IMG/VR virus record: IMGVR_UViG_3300013104_000035
Coordinates: 1-43,557 of that record
From: a virus
Direction: 5' to 3' (one strand)
Length of the DNA stretch: 43,557 nt
Shown here: positions 26,885 through 43,557 of the stretch, in pieces
How positions within the stretch are numbered: position 1 is the stretch's first letter
Layout of the letters: every line of letters starts with the position of its first letter
Notes under the pieces: model-generated
Told to the model about the DNA's origin: nothing
What the model saw: the letters and a program-made list of their open reading frames with translations, nothing else
Databases searched by the model: none
Program-made: the position numbers and the translations under genes

Positions 26885-27504
26885 GCCGCCACCCCCTCGG
26901 CCGATGCCATGAGCTGAGCGATCTCGTCCAGGTGGACGAGCCTCTGGCCCCAGGCATCGAGCCCGACGTGGACCTCGCGGGCGGGCGCGAAGATGAACTC
27001 CGTGCCGGGGATCGGCGGCGTGATGGTCACGCGCTCCGTGCCATGGGTGTGGCCATGGATCAGCCACAGGCCCTCGTCACGCAGCCGCCACTGGGCGTGG
27101 CGCGTCTCCTCGCGGTCCCGCTCGTACGGGAAGTGCGAGAGGAGCACGTTGCGCCCAGCAATGCGACGGCGAGCCGCCATGGCGACCGAGTGGAAGCCGT
27201 AGTGGTACTCGTTGCGCTTGTGGGCGTCCCGGTACATCGGGTGCGCCGCGTCGTGGTTGCCGAGGACGAGGTGCTTCAGCCCGGGCAGCCATGCCATGAA
27301 GTTCACGGCACGCATCACGACACCCTTGGCCGTGGAGCCCGTGACATCCCCGAGGACCCACACGGAGTCCTCCTTGCGGACGGTCGAGCGCCACATGTCG
27401 GCCAGGGCCTCGTCGTGCTCGGCCGGCGAGTCGAAGCCGCGGATGCTGGCCACCTTGGCGTGACCGAGGTGCAGGTCCGAGGTGAACCAGACGTTGCCCG
27501 CCAT
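26881..27504 (-). CDS. Calcineurin-like metallophosphoesterase
   Basis: A 207-residue protein from ATG 27504 (TGATG with the RtcB stop; GTG 27507 is possible). All metallophosphoesterase motifs are present: DLHLGH (D10, H12), GDVTG (D53), LGNHDA (N83, H84), LLSHFPY (H124) and HGHTHG (150-155). These hold two metals and cleave phosphoesters. Many family members act on RNA ends or 2',3'-cyclic phosphates. Lying directly downstream of RtcB, it may process broken RNA ends before or after ligation. The substrate is unknown. Confidence 0.85.
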   Translation of the reverse strand: MAGNVWFTSDLHLGHAKVASIRGFDSPAEHDEALADMWRSTVRKEDSVWVLGDVTGSTAKGVVMRAVNFMAWLPGLKHLVLGNHDAAHPMYRDAHKRNEYHYGFHSVAMAARRRIAGRNVLLSHFPYERDREETRHAQWRLRDEGLWLIHGHTHGTERVTITPPIPGTEFIFAPAREVHVGLDAWGQRLVHLDEIAQLMASAEGVAA

Positions 27505-28685
27505 CACTGACCCTTGACGTTGACGATCTGGCGCAGCTCGTACTTGACCTCCACGAGGTCGGCGGCGTCGGCCATCACCACGTCGATGTCCTTGTAGGCG
27601 GCGGGGATCTCGTCCACGAAGGCGTCGATGGCCCGGAACTCGATGTCGCCCATGGCAGCCTTCAGGTCGTCCAGGGTGAACGCCTTGCGGGCGGCGGAGC
27701 GGCTGTACTCACGGCCGGCGCCGTGCGGAGCTGAGTGGAGGCCGATGCGGTTGCCCTTGCCGGTGACGACGTACGAGCGGGTGCCCATCGAGCCGGGGAT
27801 CAGGCCCCACTCCCCCGCCTTGGCCGAGATGGCGCCCTTGCGGGACAGCCACACGTTCTCGCCGTAGTGGCGCTCCTGCTCGGTGTAGTTGTGGTGGCAG
27901 TTGACCTCGCGGGTCACCTCGACCGAGCCGCGACCGATGGGCTCGATCCACTTCGTGAAGCAGTCGAGCACCCGGTCCATCATCTCCTCGCGGTTGAGGA
28001 GGGCGAACTCCTGCGCCCAGCGGAGCTCGCGGATGTAGGCGTCGAACTCGGGCTCACCCTCCACGAGGTAGGCGAGGTCACGGTCGGGCAGAGTGATCCA
28101 GCGCTTGGCGCACTGCTCCTGCGCCACCTTGATGTGGTGCTGGGCGATCTTGTTGCCGACGCCACGACTGCCCGAGTGCAGGAACAGCCACAGGTGACCG
28201 TCCTGGTCGACGCTCACCTCGATGAAGTGATTGCCGCCACCCAGCGAGCCGAGCTGGAGAGCCCAGTTCGCTGCATACGACGCCGGGTTGAAGCCGAGGT
28301 CGAACGCCTCGTCCTCCAGCACCTTGACCCGCTGGCCCGCGGTGTAGGTGAGCTCGGCGTTGTACTTGCCCGGCGAGAGCGGGACGTGGCGCTCGATGGC
28401 CTCGCGCAGCTTGGAGCGGTCGAGCCACTCCACGTCACCCAGGGTGATGTCGGTGCGCAGCGCCATCATCCCGCAGCCGATGTCCACGCCGACCGCGGCC
28501 GGCATGATCGCGCCGAGCGTCGGGATGACCGAGCCGACCGTCGCACCCTTGCCCAGGTGGGCGTCGGGCATGAGGGCGAGGTGCGGGAAGATGAACGGCA
28601 TGGTCGAGGTGACCTCGGCCTGCTCCCGGGTGTTGTCCCCGAGGATCGAGGCGAAGTTGAACAGCTTGACGTTGAGTCGCTTCAT
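27504..28685 (-). CDS. rtcB: RtcB-type RNA ligase
   Basis: A 393-residue protein from ATG 28685, with AAGGGAG seven bases upstream. The RtcB signature is complete: DAHLGKG (D41, H43), VGVDIGCGM (C71), GGGNHFIE (149-156), HSGSRG (170-175), NCHHNY (262-267) and SAPHGAGR (H321, guanylated in the family). RtcB joins RNA with a 2',3'-cyclic or 3'-phosphate end to a 5'-OH end, as after anticodon nuclease cleavage. Family length is normal (about 390-480). It shares an operon with an Rnl2-like ligase and a phosphoesterase. Confidence 0.92.
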   Translation of the reverse strand: MKRLNVKLFNFASILGDNTREQAEVTSTMPFIFPHLALMPDAHLGKGATVGSVIPTLGAIMPAAVGVDIGCGMMALRTDITLGDVEWLDRSKLREAIERHVPLSPGKYNAELTYTAGQRVKVLEDEAFDLGFNPASYAANWALQLGSLGGGNHFIEVSVDQDGHLWLFLHSGSRGVGNKIAQHHIKVAQEQCAKRWITLPDRDLAYLVEGEPEFDAYIRELRWAQEFALLNREEMMDRVLDCFTKWIEPIGRGSVEVTREVNCHHNYTEQERHYGENVWLSRKGAISAKAGEWGLIPGSMGTRSYVVTGKGNRIGLHSAPHGAGREYSRSAARKAFTLDDLKAAMGDIEFRAIDAFVDEIPAAYKDIDVVMADAADLVEVKYELRQIVNVKGQ

Positions 28686-28687
28686 GG

Positions 28688-29113
28688 TCACGCTCCCTTC
28701 TTCCACTGGCCCTTGCGGACCCACGGCAGGCGGACGGCGGTGTGGCCGCGCTTCTTGCTGGCATCGACGTAACCCCGCTCCAGGAGGCCGGCGTCGGCCA
28801 TGGCGTCGAGGAGGCGGCTGTACTTGTCCCACGACACGAGACGGTCGAGGTAGAGGTGGTGCTGGCCCGGCGTCGATGACGGCACCACCTGGACGCCGAA
28901 GTCGAGGTCGAGGACCGGGTAGTGCAGGTGGTCGGTGTAGGCCACGGCGTAGCTCGTCACGAGGTTGGCCTCGGCTGCCGTCACGTCGTACTTGATCGGC
29001 AGCACGGGGGCATCCCCGCCCTGGTAGTCCTTCGAGCTGTTGGTGTCGATGTCCTCGACCAGCGCCAACCGGCGCTTGACGCTGCCGAGCAGGCGGATCA
29101 TGTTGTCCTTCAC
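28688..29113 (-). CDS. Hypothetical protein next to RtcB
   Basis: A 141-residue protein from GTG 29113 (GTGA overlap). The C-terminal half has VLDLDFGVQVVPSSTPGQHH, then LYLDRLVSWDKYSRLL and GYVDASKKRGHTAVRLPW. This VPSSTPGHHHLY-like core recurs in actinophage proteins of unknown function and loosely recalls primase-polymerase small-domain segments, but I would not assign an activity. Its fixed place between RtcB and an unknown gene suggests a shared RNA-related role. Confidence 0.7.
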   Translation of the reverse strand: MKDNMIRLLGSVKRRLALVEDIDTNSSKDYQGGDAPVLPIKYDVTAAEANLVTSYAVAYTDHLHYPVLDLDFGVQVVPSSTPGQHHLYLDRLVSWDKYSRLLDAMADAGLLERGYVDASKKRGHTAVRLPWVRKGQWKKGA

Positions 29114-29652
29114 GCTGCCTCCGTTCCTTCCAGCGGGCGACCGCAGCCGTAGCAGTAGTCGCCCTGTTCGTCGTCAATGTCGTCGGGGAGCTCCAGGACC
29201 CCCGGGTTGGCCGCGAAGAACTCGGTGCGGCGCTTCAGCGCGGCCTCTCGCTGCGCTCGGTGGCTCGTGTCCGCCTTGGCCTCGACCTTCTTGCGGGCGT
29301 CGGCACGGTCCTTGAAGAACGCGGCCGGCGTGCCGTGGTGGTAGGGCACCAGCCACGCCTTGCACTCCTCGCCCGTGACCTTGCTGAAGGCGAGGTCCAT
29401 GGCGGCGTTCTTGGCCTGCGTCTCGGTGCCGAAGGGGCCGACGACCACGCGGTTGTCCACGATGTCGGCCTTGTCGAGGTAGCCGCCCGGCCCCCAGTAG
29501 ACCTGCGCCGCCACGACCCACTTGGCCTTCTGCTCGTAGAGGTCGAAGGCGGCGGCTAGGACGGCCGAAGCCGCCTCGTCCAGCGAGTCGTACTCGGCGT
29601 CGATCACGGCTGCGATCCTTGCCACGTCACGCTTTCCGATGGAGAGACTCAC
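29110..29652 (-). CDS. Hypothetical protein with C-terminal CxxC
   Basis: A 180-residue protein from GTG 29652 (GTGA overlap). The N-terminus is helical (IAAVIDAEYDSLDEAASAVLAAAF). The middle has WVVAAQVYWGPGGYLDK and VVVGPFGTETQAKNAAMDLA, resembling a double-stranded-RNA-binding or sporulation-related repeat fold. A coiled-coil linker follows and the end is CYGCGRP, half a zinc ribbon. No family recognised. It lies between the two RNA ligase genes. Confidence 0.65.
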   Translation of the reverse strand: MSLSIGKRDVARIAAVIDAEYDSLDEAASAVLAAAFDLYEQKAKWVVAAQVYWGPGGYLDKADIVDNRVVVGPFGTETQAKNAAMDLAFSKVTGEECKAWLVPYHHGTPAAFFKDRADARKKVEAKADTSHRAQREAALKRRTEFFAANPGVLELPDDIDDEQGDYCYGCGRPLEGTEAA

Positions 29653-30281
29653 GCAGCGGCCTCCAGGAGGGACTTGGGGAGCTCGTCGTTCTCCAGGAGG
29701 ACCTTGTAGACCTGGCGGCTCGCGGTGTGGAACACGCAGACGCCCTCGGCCTTGCCGGCCCAGCCCTCAGCGGCGACCTTGGAGCCGGTGAAGCGGAGCT
29801 CCTCCACGGCGCCGTCGATGGCCTGCTGGGAGAAGCGACCCCGGTAGAGGATCGGCACGGTGTCGAGCCCGTGGGCGACCCAGCCGTCCTGCCGGCCGAG
29901 GTCGATGAGCTGCGCCCCGCGGTCGGCGTTGAACAGGCTGAAGCGCTTGTGGTCGAGGCCGTACTTGCGGGCGATGCCCTGCCCCCACCATTCGCCGAAG
30001 TGGTGGCCGGCGCCGAGGATGTGGACGAGCGCCTCGGCGTGCTCGCGGACCCAGCCGGCGAAGCCGAAGTGGTCGGTGGCCTTGCCCGGGGTGACGAGGC
30101 GGTTGCGGGACTGGGCGCCGACCGCGAAGTTGCCCTGCCGGGTGCAGACGACGTGCTCGCCGTCGTTGAAGCTCTCGACCTGCTCGATGATGACCGCGGC
30201 GTTGGTGCCGTCGATCTTCTCGGTGACGATGATGTCGCGGTTGAGCCGGGGCGTCTTGCCCCAGTCCTTGAACTCGATCAC
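29649..30281 (-). CDS. Rnl2-like RNA ligase
   Basis: A 210-residue protein from GTG 30281 (GTGA overlap). It carries the nucleotidyltransferase motifs: EKIDGTN (K22 takes AMP), GEWWGQ (96-101) and FSLFN (114-118), EGVCVF (179-184) and YKVLL (K193). This is the adenylation domain of ATP-dependent RNA ligases of the Rnl2/DRB0094 type, which join 3'-OH and 5'-phosphate RNA ends. The C-terminal domain of T4 Rnl2 is missing. Together with RtcB it covers both chemistries of RNA-break repair. Confidence 0.85.
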   Translation of the reverse strand: MIEFKDWGKTPRLNRDIIVTEKIDGTNAAVIIEQVESFNDGEHVVCTRQGNFAVGAQSRNRLVTPGKATDHFGFAGWVREHAEALVHILGAGHHFGEWWGQGIARKYGLDHKRFSLFNADRGAQLIDLGRQDGWVAHGLDTVPILYRGRFSQQAIDGAVEELRFTGSKVAAEGWAGKAEGVCVFHTASRQVYKVLLENDELPKSLLEAAA

Positions 30282-34290: not shown

Positions 34291-34760
34291 GCGGGCCTCA
34301 CCATCCAGTGGTTGGAGGCGCTGTCCCAGTCGAGGCTGCGCCCCGCGAGCAGGTCGTCGCGGAAGCGGCGCAGCACGCCGGCGATGTCCGTGAAGCTGTG
34401 GGGGAACTGCTTGTCGTCGTTGGCCATGGCGAGCGACGCGCGGGTCTTGTGGGACAGGCCGTGCAGCGCCTCGGGCGTCTCGCTCGGGTAGACGGTGGTG
34501 CCCGAGTGCTCGTAGAAGTAGTCGAGCGCCTGGTAGCCGTCCACATCCTCCGAGGTGGAGGCCGTGGCGTCGAGGTCGAGGCCGTCGATCTGGCACTTCA
34601 GCCCGAGGCAGCAGTAGCCATACTTGCCGGTCTCCAGGTCGGTGTGAGCCGAGCGGAGCTGGCCCGTGGCCTGCTCGTGCTCGCCGGACTCCAGCCCCGC
34701 GATCCAGCGGTCGAGCTCGTCCGCCTCCAGCGGCCGGTGGACCTTGGTCAGGTCGCTCAC
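34287..34760 (-). CDS. Conserved phage protein of unknown function
   Basis: A 157-residue protein from GTG 34760 (GTGA overlap). It belongs to a widespread phage family marked by ELDRWIAGLESGEHEQATG, then YGYCCLGLKC, and a late helix with IAGVLRRFRDDLL. The CC pair in CCLG could bind a metal or form a disulphide. The family's function is not known. Its start overlaps another small gene and its stop overlaps the fusion gene start. Confidence 0.7.
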   Translation of the reverse strand: MSDLTKVHRPLEADELDRWIAGLESGEHEQATGQLRSAHTDLETGKYGYCCLGLKCQIDGLDLDATASTSEDVDGYQALDYFYEHSGTTVYPSETPEALHGLSHKTRASLAMANDDKQFPHSFTDIAGVLRRFRDDLLAGRSLDWDSASNHWMVRPA

Positions 34761-35137
34761 GCGGCCACCTCCTGCTCCTGCGACGCGATGGCGAGGCGGA
34801 GGTAGCGGGCGGACACGCTCCACGGCTCACGGGCGTCCTGCTCGGACTGGGCGGTGGCCATGTGCTGGCCGAGCCGGCCCCAGGAGAAGTGGGCCCTGTC
34901 GATGAGCTCGCGGATGACGGCGTTGATGTTGCTGCCCTCACACGAGGTGGGGACGGCGACTCCGAGGGCCGCGAGAGCCTGGCCGAACAGGCAGCCCTCG
35001 CCGGGGATGGGCTGGCCCTCGGAGTCGCGGTGGACGTAGCGGCAGATGCCGCTGCTGTCCGTCTTGTAGATGGTGTCCGGGCTGGCCTCGGCCAACTCCA
35101 GGGCCTTCTTGGCCACGTCCAGTGCGGTGATGCTCAC
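34757..35137 (-). CDS. Conserved phage protein, CLFGQAL family-like
   Basis: A 126-residue protein from GTG 35137, with AGAGGAG seven bases upstream. It contains CRYVHRD, then EGCLFGQALAALG and an amphipathic helix (INAVIRELIDRAHFSWGRLG). A Cys-rich strand before a helix with CLFGQ resembles the neighbouring CCLGLKC family, so the two may be distant paralogues. Function unknown. Two exact operator copies lie 44 to 71 bases upstream. Confidence 0.65.
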   Translation of the reverse strand: MSITALDVAKKALELAEASPDTIYKTDSSGICRYVHRDSEGQPIPGEGCLFGQALAALGVAVPTSCEGSNINAVIRELIDRAHFSWGRLGQHMATAQSEQDAREPWSVSARYLRLAIASQEQEVAA

Positions 35138-40307: not shown

Positions 40308-41548
40308 GCCGCAACCTCAATCTCACTGGACTCCATGGCCCACAGGTCGGAGTGCAGGTCGGTGGAGAACTCCATCCAGTCCCGGCCCTCCAGGATGTCG
40401 GAGGGGCCGACGAGGAACCCTCCGTTGTTCACGTACATGTTCCCGGGGTCGAAGGACACCCGCTTGCTGGCCCAGCCCTCCATCGTGGCGGCGAGGACCC
40501 GGCCCTGATCGGCCTCCGACAGTTCGCCGTAGCCGTTGAACACCACGAAGGCGACAGCGCTGGTCGTGTCGAACGTGGGGACCAGCTTGGTGCCGTCCAG
40601 TCGGAGCGGGAAGGCCCATGCCCGACCGCTGACGTAGCCGTTCTCGTCGAACGTGCGGATCCCGAGGCCACCGTTGGACTTCAGGGTGCAGCGCGAGTGG
40701 CTGTACTCGGTCCACCAGCAGGAGCCCTCGTGGTAGAACTCGTCGGCTGGCAGGTTCAGCTGGCGCGTGAAAGCGACCCGCTTGGTGCCACCCACGCTGG
40801 ACTTCTGTGCCGCCTGCCCGATCTTGGACAGCAGCGCGTCCGGAGCCTTCTCGCCCCACGTCTTGTGGAGGTACTTGGCGATGCGCTTGGAGTATTTGCC
40901 GTCCTTGGAGACATACTCCATCCCGACGTTCCACGACGCGCTGATGAGCCTGTCGCGGAGCAGCCACTGCTCGCTGTTGTAGGGGATCTCCTGGTAGATC
41001 AGGGTACGGATCGCCTCCATACCGCTGGCCGTGATGAGGCCGTCCGGCAGGGTGACCTCGATGGTCTCGTCCTGCGGCGTGCCGTTCGGCATCACGAAGT
41101 GGATGGCCGGGGAGTCGCAGCAGTCCGACGACGAGTCGGTGTCGTGGTAGTGGTCCTCGTCGTCGCTGTGGACGTAGTAGTCGCACGAGTCGCAGTAGTT
41201 GTAGTAGTCGAAGCACGAGGAGCAGACGTGCTCGTTCCCGCAGTACACCGAGTAGATGTCGGAGTCGGGGACGTGCTCGTCGCAGCGGTCGCAGGAGGGG
41301 TAGCTGTCGAGGCAGTCGTCGCAGACCGTCCGGTAGCCACGGTCGACCGTGGTCATGTCCCCGTCCGGGGTGATCTCGTCGCAGTCCTCACACGTCGAGA
41401 AGTACGCGGCGATGCAGTCCTCGCAGACATCCTCGCCCGACTTGACGCCGGTCACGTCCTCGACGGTCTCCAGACAGTGCGCACACTCCAAGGCCGGTTC
41501 GGCGGCCTCCGTGGCGTCCTCGGTCACTCTCTCCATCACAGCGGTCAT
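40304..41548 (-). CDS. Multi-zinc-ribbon protein
   Basis: A 414-residue protein from ATG 41548. Residues 20-145 hold at least eight CxxC pairs in series (CAHC, CEDC, CEDC, CDDC, CDRC, CSSC, CDSC), a LIM/treble-clef-like array that would bind several zinc ions. After residue 150 there is a separate domain (FVMPNGTPQDETIEVTLPDG, then PYNSEQWLLRDRLISASW) with a long aromatic C-terminus. No family is certain, though related proteins occur in actinophages. The ribbons suggest protein or nucleic-acid binding in host takeover. It is the first large gene after the leader. Confidence 0.7.
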   Translation of the reverse strand: MTAVMERVTEDATEAAEPALECAHCLETVEDVTGVKSGEDVCEDCIAAYFSTCEDCDEITPDGDMTTVDRGYRTVCDDCLDSYPSCDRCDEHVPDSDIYSVYCGNEHVCSSCFDYYNYCDSCDYYVHSDDEDHYHDTDSSSDCCDSPAIHFVMPNGTPQDETIEVTLPDGLITASGMEAIRTLIYQEIPYNSEQWLLRDRLISASWNVGMEYVSKDGKYSKRIAKYLHKTWGEKAPDALLSKIGQAAQKSSVGGTKRVAFTRQLNLPADEFYHEGSCWWTEYSHSRCTLKSNGGLGIRTFDENGYVSGRAWAFPLRLDGTKLVPTFDTTSAVAFVVFNGYGELSEADQGRVLAATMEGWASKRVSFDPGNMYVNNGGFLVGPSDILEGRDWMEFSTDLHSDLWAMESSEIEVAA

Positions 41549-41599
41549 GACAGTTCTCCAGTGTCTAGGTGTGGTTCAGGCTTCTGCCTGCCAACGCGA

Positions 41600-41641
41600 G
41601 GCCCGGTCCCCAACCGGGCCGCACGCAAGCACTCAGGTGCT
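41600..41641 (-). other. Two hairpins in the leader of the zinc-ribbon gene
   Basis: GGCCCGGT (41600-41607) pairs with ACCGGGCC (41613-41620) around CCCCA. Then AGCAC (41628-41632) pairs with GTGCT (41637-41641). They lie in the roughly 200-base leader between the likely promoter near 41756 and the ATG at 41548. I see nothing else in this gap apart from the operator. Confidence 0.55.
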
Positions 41642-41746
41642 CGGTGTCTCGTGCCGTTCCAACAAGTCGCCTCGTGGACGACCCTCCATGTACTCCCCCC
41701 TCATATCTCCCCTCTCGGATCGGCGATACCCAGTGTGTTGGTGTGA

Positions 41747-41773
41747 CCACGGTAGCACACTTGCCCACCGTGG
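41747..41773 (-). promoter_or_regulatory. Operator and -10 box inside an inverted repeat
   Basis: CCACGGT (41747-41753) and ACCGTGG (41767-41773) enclose the exact core CAAGTGTG (minus strand, 41756-41763). On the minus strand the core is followed by CTACCGTGG, a plausible -10 (TACCGT), so it resembles the right-end CAAGTGTGCTAGAGT sites. It likely serves the zinc-ribbon gene. Confidence 0.55.
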
Positions 41774-41786
41774 CCAGACTGATGAC

Positions 41787-41888
41787 TCAGCCCAGCAGGC
41801 TGAGCAGGTCAGGCCCGAGGCAGATCACGACAGCGCTCACCAGGAGCCTGCGGACGCCTCGCTTCGACATCGTGGCGCAGGTGGCCAC
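41787..41888 (-). CDS. Tiny predicted membrane protein
   Basis: A 33-residue product from GTG 41888, one base after the previous stop. Its second half is hydrophobic (RRLLVSAVVICLGPDLLSLLG), enough for one membrane helix. There is no ribosome site, so translation would depend on coupling. ATG 41870 in frame would give 27 residues. Small hydrophobic proteins at operon starts are common in phages, but this is a weak call. Confidence 0.4.
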   Translation of the reverse strand: MATCATMSKRGVRRLLVSAVVICLGPDLLSLLG

Positions 41889-41889
41889 G

Positions 41890-42096
41890 TCAGTACCCGG
41901 CCATCACACGGCGGCGGAGCGTCGCGGGGTCGAGTGGCTTGAAGGTCGGCGCGACTCGTCGCGTCTCGACCGGGTGCGTCTTGCCGTCCGACGAGCGCCA
42001 GCGGCTGGAGCCCTGCGTCACGTTCTGGACGTAGTTGGAGCGGAACCGAGGCCCTCCGGGCGTCGGGCCTTGCAGGTAGGCGTGTGCCTTGGACAT
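41890..42096 (-). CDS. Small basic protein
   Basis: A 68-residue protein from ATG 42096, with GGAGGAACG upstream. It reads AYLQGPTPGGPRFRSNYVQN, then GSSRWRSSDGKTHPVETRRV and LRRRVMAGY. It is basic with Pro/Gly, suggesting nucleic-acid or surface binding. No family recognised. The next gene follows one base after its stop. Confidence 0.6.
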   Translation of the reverse strand: MSKAHAYLQGPTPGGPRFRSNYVQNVTQGSSRWRSSDGKTHPVETRRVAPTFKPLDPATLRRRVMAGY

Positions 42097-42115
42097 CGTT
42101 CCTCCAGTGGTCGGG

Positions 42116-42325
42116 TCAGAACTTCAGGATGTCTGCGAGGTGCGCAGCTTCGATCTCGGCAGCGGCGAGGTCGATCCCGTCCTCGTGGAGGACGAGCATG
42201 ATCTCGGTCTCCAGATCGGAGCGGGTGAGCAGGCCATGGGCGAAGTGCCCGGCCAGCTTGTAGAGGTGCGACCAGGCGAACTCGGAGATGTCGAGCCGCT
42301 CGGGGCGCGTGGCAGTAGCAGCCAT
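42116..42325 (-). CDS. First gene of the leftward operon, small acidic protein
   Basis: A 69-residue protein; I chose ATG 42325 because GGAGG lies upstream, although the frame opens further. It is helical (DISEFAWSHLYKLAGHFAHG, then RSDLETEIMLVLHEDGIDLA and AAHLADILKF). No family recognised. As the first gene after the right-end promoters it should be made very early after infection, a position often used for host-takeover proteins. Confidence 0.65.
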   Translation of the reverse strand: MAATATRPERLDISEFAWSHLYKLAGHFAHGLLTRSDLETEIMLVLHEDGIDLAAAEIEAAHLADILKF

Positions 42326-42419
42326 GGTGGCCTCCAGTGATCGGTGGTTGTTGCGGCTCCAGCGTGTGGCCAGTGGCCGGACACGGCGGAGCCGTTGTGG
42401 TGAGGGCGGGAGTTGATCC

Positions 42420-42476
42420 CTAGCACTTGCGCGGTGGCCAACGGCCACCCGCCTGCCGTCCGACTGTCACTCGGAC
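42420..42476 (-). other. Leader hairpins upstream of the first leftward gene
   Basis: GGTGGCC/GGCCACC (42433-42449, AAC loop) and GTCCGA/TCGGAC (42458-42476, seven-base loop) are both perfect. They lie in the leader of the leftward transcript. CAAGTGCTAGGGAT on the minus strand at about 42416-42429 is a shortened version of the operator-plus -10 element. Confidence 0.55.
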
Positions 42477-42516
42477 CTAGCAGCGAATCCCTCACCTAAA
42501 GTTTGTTGTCGCTTTC

Positions 42517-42596
42517 GGCGGACTCACTCGGAGCGACTGTCTCAGTCACTCTCACTCGGAGCGACTGTCTCAGTCACTCACCGGAGTGAGTCCGCC
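42517..42596 (-). ncRNA. Candidate three-way-junction leader RNA with tandem repeat
   Basis: An outer 13-base-pair stem pairs 42517-42529 with 42584-42596. Inside are two copies of a 28-base direct repeat (42523-42550, 42551-42578), each giving a nine-pair hairpin with a triloop (42531-42551 and 42559-42579). In the minus-strand transcript all nine pairs form with one U-G wobble and an AGA loop; in the plus strand that position is a C-A mismatch. So structure favours the leftward RNA. It lies between the early promoters and the first gene. Confidence 0.55.
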
Positions 42597-42889
42597 TACA
42601 CCCAGAGTCCTCACCTAGTTCAGCCCTCACCTCCCGAGCGGACATCCACAAGGGTGACGAGACAGCGGCCTAGATCAGTGTGCTGACCACCCGGAGGTGC
42701 CAGCCGAGACGCTAGTCACGACGTTGATCGGGGGACGGAAGGGATCGACCTACTAGGTGCGAGGATGCCCTCGTGCTCACCGTTGGGTGTCACCGCCGAT
42801 TCAGTGGGTACTGCCCACCTACTTGACCGCCGACTCCATGCTCTGAAGTTGTGGTGCGAACCCGACCCGCTGGGCCGTTCGCTTGGTCC

Positions 42890-42908
42890 TACTCTAGCAC
42901 ACTTGGCC
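42890..42908 (-). promoter_or_regulatory. Right-end operator-promoter module 1
   Basis: The minus strand reads GGCCAAGTGTGCTAGAGTA: exact core (42898-42905), one base, then -10 TAGAGT (42891-42896). The -35 box is not clear (TTCGCT about 18 bases upstream). Points to the leftward operon. Confidence 0.65.
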
Positions 42909-42968
42909 ACCCGGAGCGAACCGAGCGGGCCAGCGGCCCGATCCTCACCGACCGGAGCCGGTGAGCCC

Positions 42969-42987
42969 TACTCTAGCACACTTGGCC
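42969..42987 (-). promoter_or_regulatory. Right-end operator-promoter module 2
   Basis: Identical 19 bases to module 1, 79 bases further right: core 42977-42984, TAGAGT 42970-42975. A CTCACCG/CGGTGAG hairpin (42944-42965) begins about five bases after the -10 box, so the transcript would start with it. Confidence 0.65.
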
Positions 42988-43048
42988 GGACCGGCGAACC
43001 GGAGCGACTGGGCAGTGCCTGCCCTCACCGAGCGAACCCGGTGAGCCG

Positions 43049-43067
43049 TACTCTAGCACACTTGGCC
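43049..43067 (-). promoter_or_regulatory. Right-end operator-promoter module 3
   Basis: Same 19 bases again, 80 bases further right: core 43057-43064, TAGAGT 43050-43055. CTCACCG/CGGTGAG hairpin at 43024-43045 follows it. A reversed variant CAAGTGAG is at 43073-43080, making a facing pair. Confidence 0.65.
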
Positions 43068-43218
43068 GGAGCCAAGTGAGTCAAGCGATACGCCGGAGGT
43101 CTGTAACCAGTCCCCGCTGGTGCGCCCTACTGAGCACGGTCCCCTACGGTTCCATGCCGTTCGCAACGCTATCCCCTCCCCCAAGCGCTAGGCGCTCGGT
43201 TCGGTGCGGCGTGATGCC

Positions 43219-43235
43219 ACTCTAGCACACTTGCT
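43219..43235 (-). promoter_or_regulatory. Right-end operator-promoter module 4
   Basis: The minus strand reads GAGCAAGTGTGCTAGAGTGG, with core 43226-43233 and TAGAGT 43219-43224. It lacks the following CTCACCG hairpin of modules 2 and 3 and is 169 bases from module 3. Confidence 0.6.
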
Positions 43236-43327
43236 CACGTGCCTGCCCAGTGACCGGGCTAGATGCGAGTCACGTCCCGGAGCGGTGAACCGTTCCGGCC
43301 TGACAACGAGAACACTACGGGTCGGCA

Positions 43328-43335
43328 CACACTTG
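43328..43335 (-). promoter_or_regulatory. Rightmost CAAGTGTG site
   Basis: The minus strand reads TTGTGCAAGTGTGTGCC. The core is exact but no TAGAGT follows, so it is an operator-like site without an attached -10 box. It lies about 120 bases downstream of the end-most promoter (43457-43485) in the transcription direction. Confidence 0.5.
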
Positions 43336-43449
43336 CACAAGTCGAGTGGCCAGATTGGGTGCGTTTCCGCAGGTCAGCCCGTGTAACGCAGTCGGGCGTG
43401 TCGCGCCTCCCTCGCGTGCGCCACTCCTGTTCTCTCACACGCACACATG

Positions 43450-43495
43450 TAACGTTGTGTTATGGGTCTGAGCCTAGCTGCCCAACGCGACGTTA
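43450..43495. repeat. Imperfect inverted repeat near the right end
   Basis: TAACGTTGTGTT..GGG (43450-43466) pairs with CCCAACGCGACGTTA (43481-43495) over 15 positions with a two-base bulge, and two pairs are G-U in the plus-strand RNA. The loop is 14 bases. It could be a structured RNA, a protein-binding site or part of an end-processing site. A promoter overlaps it. Confidence 0.5.
43457..43485 (-). promoter_or_regulatory. Leftward promoter at the right end
   Basis: On the minus strand TTGGGC (43480-43485), a 17-base spacer and TAACAC (43457-43462) resemble a sigma-A promoter. It lies inside the inverted repeat and upstream of all operator modules, so it may be the outermost start of the leftward transcript. 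Confidence 0.4.
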
Positions 43496-43557
43496 TAACC
43501 GCAGGTCAGGCGGCATGTTACCCGGGGGTAGCACCCCTTCGGCATGAAAGCCCGCAC

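Follow-up and report, generated by a model that had tools for sequence, protein, structure and literature searches.

A tandem-repeat RNA in the early leader of a Streptomyces phage with a possible effect on elongating polymerase

The put RNA of coliphage HK022 (putL and putR) causes antitermination in cis without a phage protein, via the beta' zinc-binding domain. To our knowledge, this is the one coliphage system from which RNA-only antitermination is known in detail. The put RNA is about 70 nt long and has two stem-loops, and putR lies about 270 nt from the start site (PMC9378689). Here, we describe an 80-nt structured RNA element (42517 to 42596, minus strand) in the leftward early leader of a Streptomyces phage. 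It resembles put in being short (80 versus 70 nt), in the two stem-loops of one of its folds, and in its position at the start of the early operon, where it follows an early promoter on the expected transcript; the element begins about 290 nt downstream of the start site inferred for a promoter homologous to known early promoters, a distance similar to that of putR. The two differ in that the hairpins found here are identical repeats inside a 13-bp outer stem and the equilibrium favours a rod. The host polymerase is also a different one, and antitermination by the present element is a proposal. The put-like arrangement, with two 9-bp stem-loops in 80 nt, is one of two predicted folds of the element, making up 0 to 3% of the modelled equilibrium ensemble and favoured by the order of folding.

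The record comprises one virus of 43,557 bp, an uncultured Streptomyces phage; we call this whole stretch of analysed DNA the window. Its left part is 74 to 77% identical to the head-tail and tail genes of the Streptomyces phages such as phiScoe25, Celia, and Spernnie, members of the subfamily Arquatrovirinae, and the window encodes a serine integrase, a DnaB-like helicase, RtcB, and an RNA ligase. This phage is a temperate Streptomyces siphophage related to the Arquatrovirinae, and the terminase and capsid region, located to the left of the tail genes in relatives, appears to be missing from the record. The early region is at the right end and reads leftward, with a non-coding leader of 1.2 kb (42326 to 43557). 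Celia and phiScoe25 have a matching architecture, with right-end non-coding leaders of about 1.1 and 0.8 kb, respectively, as cut by their annotation. The first early gene (42116 to 42325, minus strand), 3' of the element, encodes 69 aa with no assigned function, and its start codon (42325) is 191 nt from the element, in agreement with the approximately 190 bases of the original prediction. This protein had no match in Pfam, phages, or viral contigs, and no homologues were found of the second early protein, of P0002, or of the 293-aa protein. Integrase relatives in Streptomyces-like genomes were set aside, as they share no DnaB and no leader with the window. RtcB and a second RNA ligase are encoded close together (27504 to 29177 and 29649 to 30281, both minus strand) and form an RNA repair pair; relatives of this temperate phage bear self-cleaving and tRNA-like RNAs.

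In the minus-strand RNA, the element starts with the 5' arm of the outer stem (GGCGGACUCACUC, 42584 to 42596) and ends with its 3' arm (GAGUGAGUCCGCC, 42517 to 42529). These two 13-nt arms are 100% complementary and separated by 54 nt, so the 13-pair outer stem exists as predicted. Two 28-nt direct repeats were said to be enclosed by it. They are indeed 100% identical (42551 to 42578, transcribed first, and 42523 to 42550, transcribed second), but the last 7 nt of the second copy lie within the outer stem and make up 7 of the 13 bases of its arm. Sequence and folding gave two nine-pair hairpins with an AGA triloop on this strand, again as expected: hairpin 1 (GAGUGACUG-AGA-CAGUCGCUC, 42559 to 42579, including one U.G pair) and hairpin 2, of the same sequence (42531 to 42551). 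The linker GAGUGAG (42551 to 42557) repeats the sequence with which the outer 3' arm begins. Just 3' of the element there is another, small hairpin, GTCCGA-CTGTCAC-TCGGAC (42461 to 42479), which matches the region of the 28-nt repeat over 13 nt (12 of 13) and may be a smaller third relative of it.

No other exact tandem repeat with a period of 15 to 59 bases occurs in the 43.6-kb window, and 60 shuffles gave none. An inverted repeat of 13 bp within 100 nt arose in 2 of 500 shuffles of the leader. Since the window holds further inverted repeats of at least 13 bp (13 to 15 bp, at 2072, 6330, and 34956), the stem alone is not unique, whereas the combination is. The last of these, a perfect 15-bp inverted repeat with a 43-nt loop (34956 to 35028), is inside a predicted coding frame (34757 to 35137, minus strand) and, on either strand, ranks with the stablest folds in the window. 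When one repeat copy of the element is deleted, a plain 52-nt hairpin of -38.8 kcal/mol remains. The present element thus looks like a hairpin with its inner unit duplicated, and this modelling suggests that it derives from such a hairpin by internal duplication. The duplication could be a functionless product of recent replication slippage within a hairpin, as would fit the 100% identity of the copies, the presence of other 13- to 15-bp inverted repeats in the window, and the fact that no relative keeps the element. Nevertheless, the outer 13-bp stem is perfect, is shared only in part with the duplication, and is rare by chance in the leader shuffles, and we regard a neutral origin of the whole as improbable.

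The fold of the 80-mer is very stable. The minus strand reaches -54.8 kcal/mol (z = -8.1), with none of 200 shuffles as stable, and the plus strand -50.1 kcal/mol (z = -7.2), which no shuffle equalled. Two competing minus-strand folds draw on the same arms. In the three-way junction put forward by the original prediction (-50.5 kcal/mol), each repeat copy closes on itself. The minimum-energy fold is instead a rod (-54.8 kcal/mol), where the copies pair together across an AGA/AGA internal loop, the arms of hairpin 2 pairing with those of hairpin 1. It lies 4 to 5 kcal/mol below the junction and, at both 30 and 37 C, accounts for 95 to 100% of the sampled ensemble, against 0 to 3% for the junction, with three parameter sets (Turner 2004, Andronescu 2007, and Langdon 2018). 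Within the 562-nt leader, the outer stem has a pair probability of 1.0 for 12 of its 13 pairs. The expectation of a strongly folded minus-strand RNA was therefore borne out, but its best fold is the rod, and the junction is plausible only through co-transcriptional folding.

Such folding was modelled by letting the hairpins form on emergence, and the best folding path in this folding-order analysis ends at the junction. In prefix folds of 48 to 73 nt, the linker competes for CUCACUC during synthesis: along the path it pairs with the 5' outer arm first and is displaced by the true 3' outer arm at nucleotides 74 to 80. The direct path from junction to rod has a barrier of 16.8 kcal/mol, and assuming a prefactor between 10^6 and 10^8 per second the relaxation would, by a rough estimate, take hours to days, longer than a typical bacterial mRNA lasts. 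Given a barrier of about 17 kcal/mol, the junction may persist on the mRNA time scale, and in these models it could arise kinetically but is not the stable form.

The length of the rod is relevant to a different function, in which the element serves the processing or stability of the mRNA: RNase III would cut the long stem, or the stem would shield the early mRNA from exonucleases, and the duplication would merely have lengthened the double strand. At equilibrium, the rod offers 13 bp, 9 bp, and 9 to 10 bp, a length generally sufficient for RNase III; other leader transcripts likewise begin with strong hairpins, and the leaders of relatives bear a tRNA-like element resembling a minimal RNase P substrate. 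T7-type RNase III sites, too, are long stems in early transcripts. Unlike these, the putative site described here is in a leader and not between genes. Against this role, the stems of the kinetically favoured junction are of just 13 and 9 bp. We consider a processing or stability role a serious candidate, if still on the unlikely side.

A leftward transcript was expected at this locus, and the promoters argue for it. The last early promoter of the window, with its -10 TAGAGT (42896 to 42891) and the leader start (42871 to 42896, minus strand, TAGAGTAGGACCAAGCGAACGGCCCA), has a homologue in Camvirus phages, where it is again the last of the early promoters (TAGAGTAGGACCCAGAACGAACGGCCCA). The alignment TAGAGTAGGACC(C)A..CGAACGGCCCA scored 40 to 45 with six phages (L028, L031, L032, L035, L036, and L039), compared with shuffled maxima of 28 to 32, and several of the aligned Camvirus phages have TTGACA 17 nt upstream of the -10. 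A tandem promoter-like motif, AAGTGTGCTAGAGT, is found on the minus strand at 42970 to 42983 (extended -10 TGCTAGAGT), 43050 to 43063, and 43219 to 43232; its pattern occurs 5 times versus 0.10 expected. Four minus-strand promoter-like motifs are upstream of the element, which accordingly lies downstream of the right-end promoters, as had been stated. Two of the tandem motifs (42970 to 42983 and 43050 to 43063) are directly followed by minus-strand hairpins (42943 to 42966 and 43023 to 43046, respectively), which differ from each other by a paired G-C to C-G swap. Both are more stable as minus-strand RNA (-17.2 and -15.0 versus -11.2 kcal/mol; the first and last values are those of the 42943 to 42966 hairpin on the minus and plus strands). 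The promoter homology implies a leftward transcript, and leftward transcription through 42517 to 42596 is well supported by these sequence comparisons.

Another sequence, GCAAGTGTG, occurs 11 times in the window (15265, 15950, 21789, 32765, 35181, 35201, 35353, 40291, 41756, 43226, and 43328) versus 0.38 expected, often before genes and in promoters. Palindromic CACTTGTGCAAGTG forms are present in related phages, and judging from its distribution GCAAGTGTG is likely to be an operator or promoter element.

Selection on the RNA had been proposed from a difference between the strands: all the inner pairs are canonical or U.G on the minus strand, and the plus strand has a C.A mismatch at the place of the U.G pair. 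The sequence confirms the difference. Since both strands fold strongly, the argument rests on one base pair, present twice through the duplication, and is weak on its own. It is strengthened by the promoter-linked hairpins, which favour the minus strand, and by the homology with Camvirus promoters, and the element most likely belongs to the leftward early leader as a feature of the RNA. The almost equal folding of the two strands could also reflect a site acting as DNA, where the two imperfect 21-bp palindromes in the 28-bp repeats would be operator or replication-initiator sites, or would extrude as cruciforms. Such a site could also account for a sequence made of repeated GTCACTC/ACTCACTC blocks. 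Yet the palindromes are imperfect on DNA exactly where the RNA pairs by G.U, a spacing of 28 bp does not make up complete turns of the helix, and the promoter-linked hairpins of the same leader also favour minus-strand RNA. A DNA site seems improbable to us, a shade more so than a neutral by-product.

The position of a GC-rich stem ahead of the first gene raises the question of whether it is a terminator or attenuator limiting leftward early transcription. Actinobacterial terminators may lack a U-run. No U-run follows the stem on either strand, and a scan of 41500 to 43557 found no intrinsic terminator (a GC-rich stem followed by a U-run). Moreover, an unregulated block situated 190 nt ahead of the first gene would shut the early operon down, which makes this role among the least probable of those considered.

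No relative turned up, either of the element or of the adjacent early proteins that were tested, when we searched phages and 2.9 million viral contigs as well as 49 related phage records and about 400 Streptomyces genomes. Homologues of the leader were equally absent from phages by blastn and from the 49 related phage records and 5 actinobacterial genomes by DNA search. Two isolated matches were judged to be due to chance: one to the hairpin pattern, inside a coding ORF of an unrelated viral contig, and one from the DNA search of related phages and actinobacterial genomes, inside an apparent tail-gene region. The 22 single-copy matches to the pattern CAAGTGTGCTAGAGT in viral contigs were also taken as chance, and the string AAGCGACA, common to the flank in the window and to Camvirus leaders, is too short to weigh. 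In Rfam 15, no family matched at its gathering score (best at the element, 17.1 bits versus 70 needed), consistent with the earlier statement that no named phage RNA has this shape. Neither a tRNA-like element nor an rrn-like box was found at the element, and a literature search retrieved no paper describing these leaders. Structured early-leader RNAs of phages are already known; what is new is the duplicated, two-state form and the actinophage setting.

Related phages have other RNAs in this place. In Camvirus, the slot contains a copy of the antitermination region of the host rRNA leader, then hairpins with compensatory changes, and then a tRNA-like T-arm with a closing stem. The box TTGAGAACT(C/G)AACAG is found in the leaders of 17 Camvirus or Camvirus-like phages, in Yosif and the L134-L137 group, and in Streptomyces rRNA leaders about 190 nt before the 16S-like start (L117 and L118). 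In phiScoe10, a stretch of 59 nt is identical to a Streptomyces rrn leader at 53 positions, and L137 shows the similarity across about 106 nt, TAGAG(T) included. This copy of a leader from the host's rRNA operon, comprising TTGAGAACTCAACAG and bases upstream of it, was observed in L026 (10659 to 10811, minus strand), in L028-L044, and on the reverse strand of L134-L137. These similarities suggest that Camvirus and related Arquatrovirinae borrow rRNA antitermination for the early operon. The hairpins after the Camvirus box showed 26 double-change cells versus 10.6 in shuffles, a value reached by 0 of 500 shuffles, and a covariation score of 0.228 versus 0.109; the shuffles ignore relatedness, and slid controls were also much lower.

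Like the actinobacterial rrn leader copied by Camvirus, the element described here follows homologous early promoters and precedes the first early gene, but the two do not share their sequence. The box is absent from the window at up to one mismatch (it is present in 10 of the 43 records searched), and no alignment of the window with the rrn leader exceeded shuffles. A covariance model of the Camvirus early-leader RNA built from 17 phages (R1) gave a best hit of 2.2 bits (E = 0.59) with filters off, and none in the whole window at E values up to 5. In the R4-like phages (L138-L144 and L151), the same slot is occupied by another branched RNA with a closing outer stem. This RNA (R4-like and related phages, L134-L144) is similar to the present element in being branched, closed by an outer stem, and located shortly before the first early gene; it differs in sequence, has unequal hairpins, and lacks the tandem repeat. 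Its model (R2, from 10 phages) keeps only 5 pairs and is mainly a sequence test; in this weak test there was no match at 42517 to 42596 and no clear match in the window, the regional best (9.8 bits, E = 0.08) being elsewhere on the plus strand. The R4-like RNA has an outer stem CTCCCC..GGGGAG, a hairpin of 6 to 7 bp, and a short GCC-GCAAA-GGC loop; some of its differences from phage to phage are paired (records L138, L139, L142-L144, and L151, and L134-L137). From these comparisons, the element occupies the place where phages of this group carry structured and in part host-derived early-leader RNAs.

Within this setting, the single most likely function in our analysis is that the 80 nt are a lineage-specific, cis-acting early-leader RNA which acts on the elongating polymerase in an antitermination-like manner. 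We give this a probability of about 0.38, with RNase III processing or stability close behind. We rank an effect on the polymerase first by analogy with rrn-type leaders and HK022 put (PMC9378689). As the polymerase advances, hairpin 1 and then hairpin 2 would snap shut, the emerging outer 3' arm would displace the linker copy, and the junction would close. The folded RNA would then act on the elongating polymerase by antitermination or anti-pausing, on the principle of HK022 put, and the early operon would be read through. We count in favour of this function the fold and chance tests, the promoter homology, the robust outer stem, the folding order with its barrier, and the comparison of leader slots. 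Against it, the element lacks relatives in the searched sets, the equilibrium favours the rod while a put-like action would need both hairpins, no terminator to overcome was shown 3' of the element, and there is no sequence similarity to the rrn-like leader of relatives; the exact identity of the copies could also be recent slippage without function. A bistable version of the put-like RNA, whose co-transcriptional junction would modify the actinobacterial RNA polymerase before turning into a later, inactive rod, and which would replace the captured rRNA antitermination leader of relatives, appears about as improbable as a terminator.

If the element does act on the polymerase, it would be a second, unrelated antitermination RNA, in an actinophage, which would open the mechanism to comparison. 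Across these Streptomyces phages, the leader slot accommodates several unlike structured RNAs, of which one seems to have been copied from a host rRNA operon, so that the borrowing of the rRNA antitermination machinery by phages for their early genes becomes directly testable.

Other small RNAs were noticed in the relatives. The tRNA-like element consists of a T-arm (CCNGG-TTCGAGT-CCNGG) closed by GGGTG/CACCC, has no D or anticodon arm, and varies with its pairing kept; it looks like a minimal RNase P substrate. It had no Rfam match in the loci scanned. It is located at the ends of Camvirus leaders (L029, L030, L035-L038, and L040-L044) and, in Streptomyces phages and mycobacteriophage Konstantine, between early genes; the other loci noted are in L027 (near 312, 766, 1523, and 2282), in L039 (near 1327), and on the reverse strand of L134 and L135 (near 1250 and 2010). 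Finally, a type II hammerhead ribozyme (RF02276, 46.2 bits, E = 1e-6) was found between early genes of Streptomyces phage VieEnRose (L045, 1286 to 1350).
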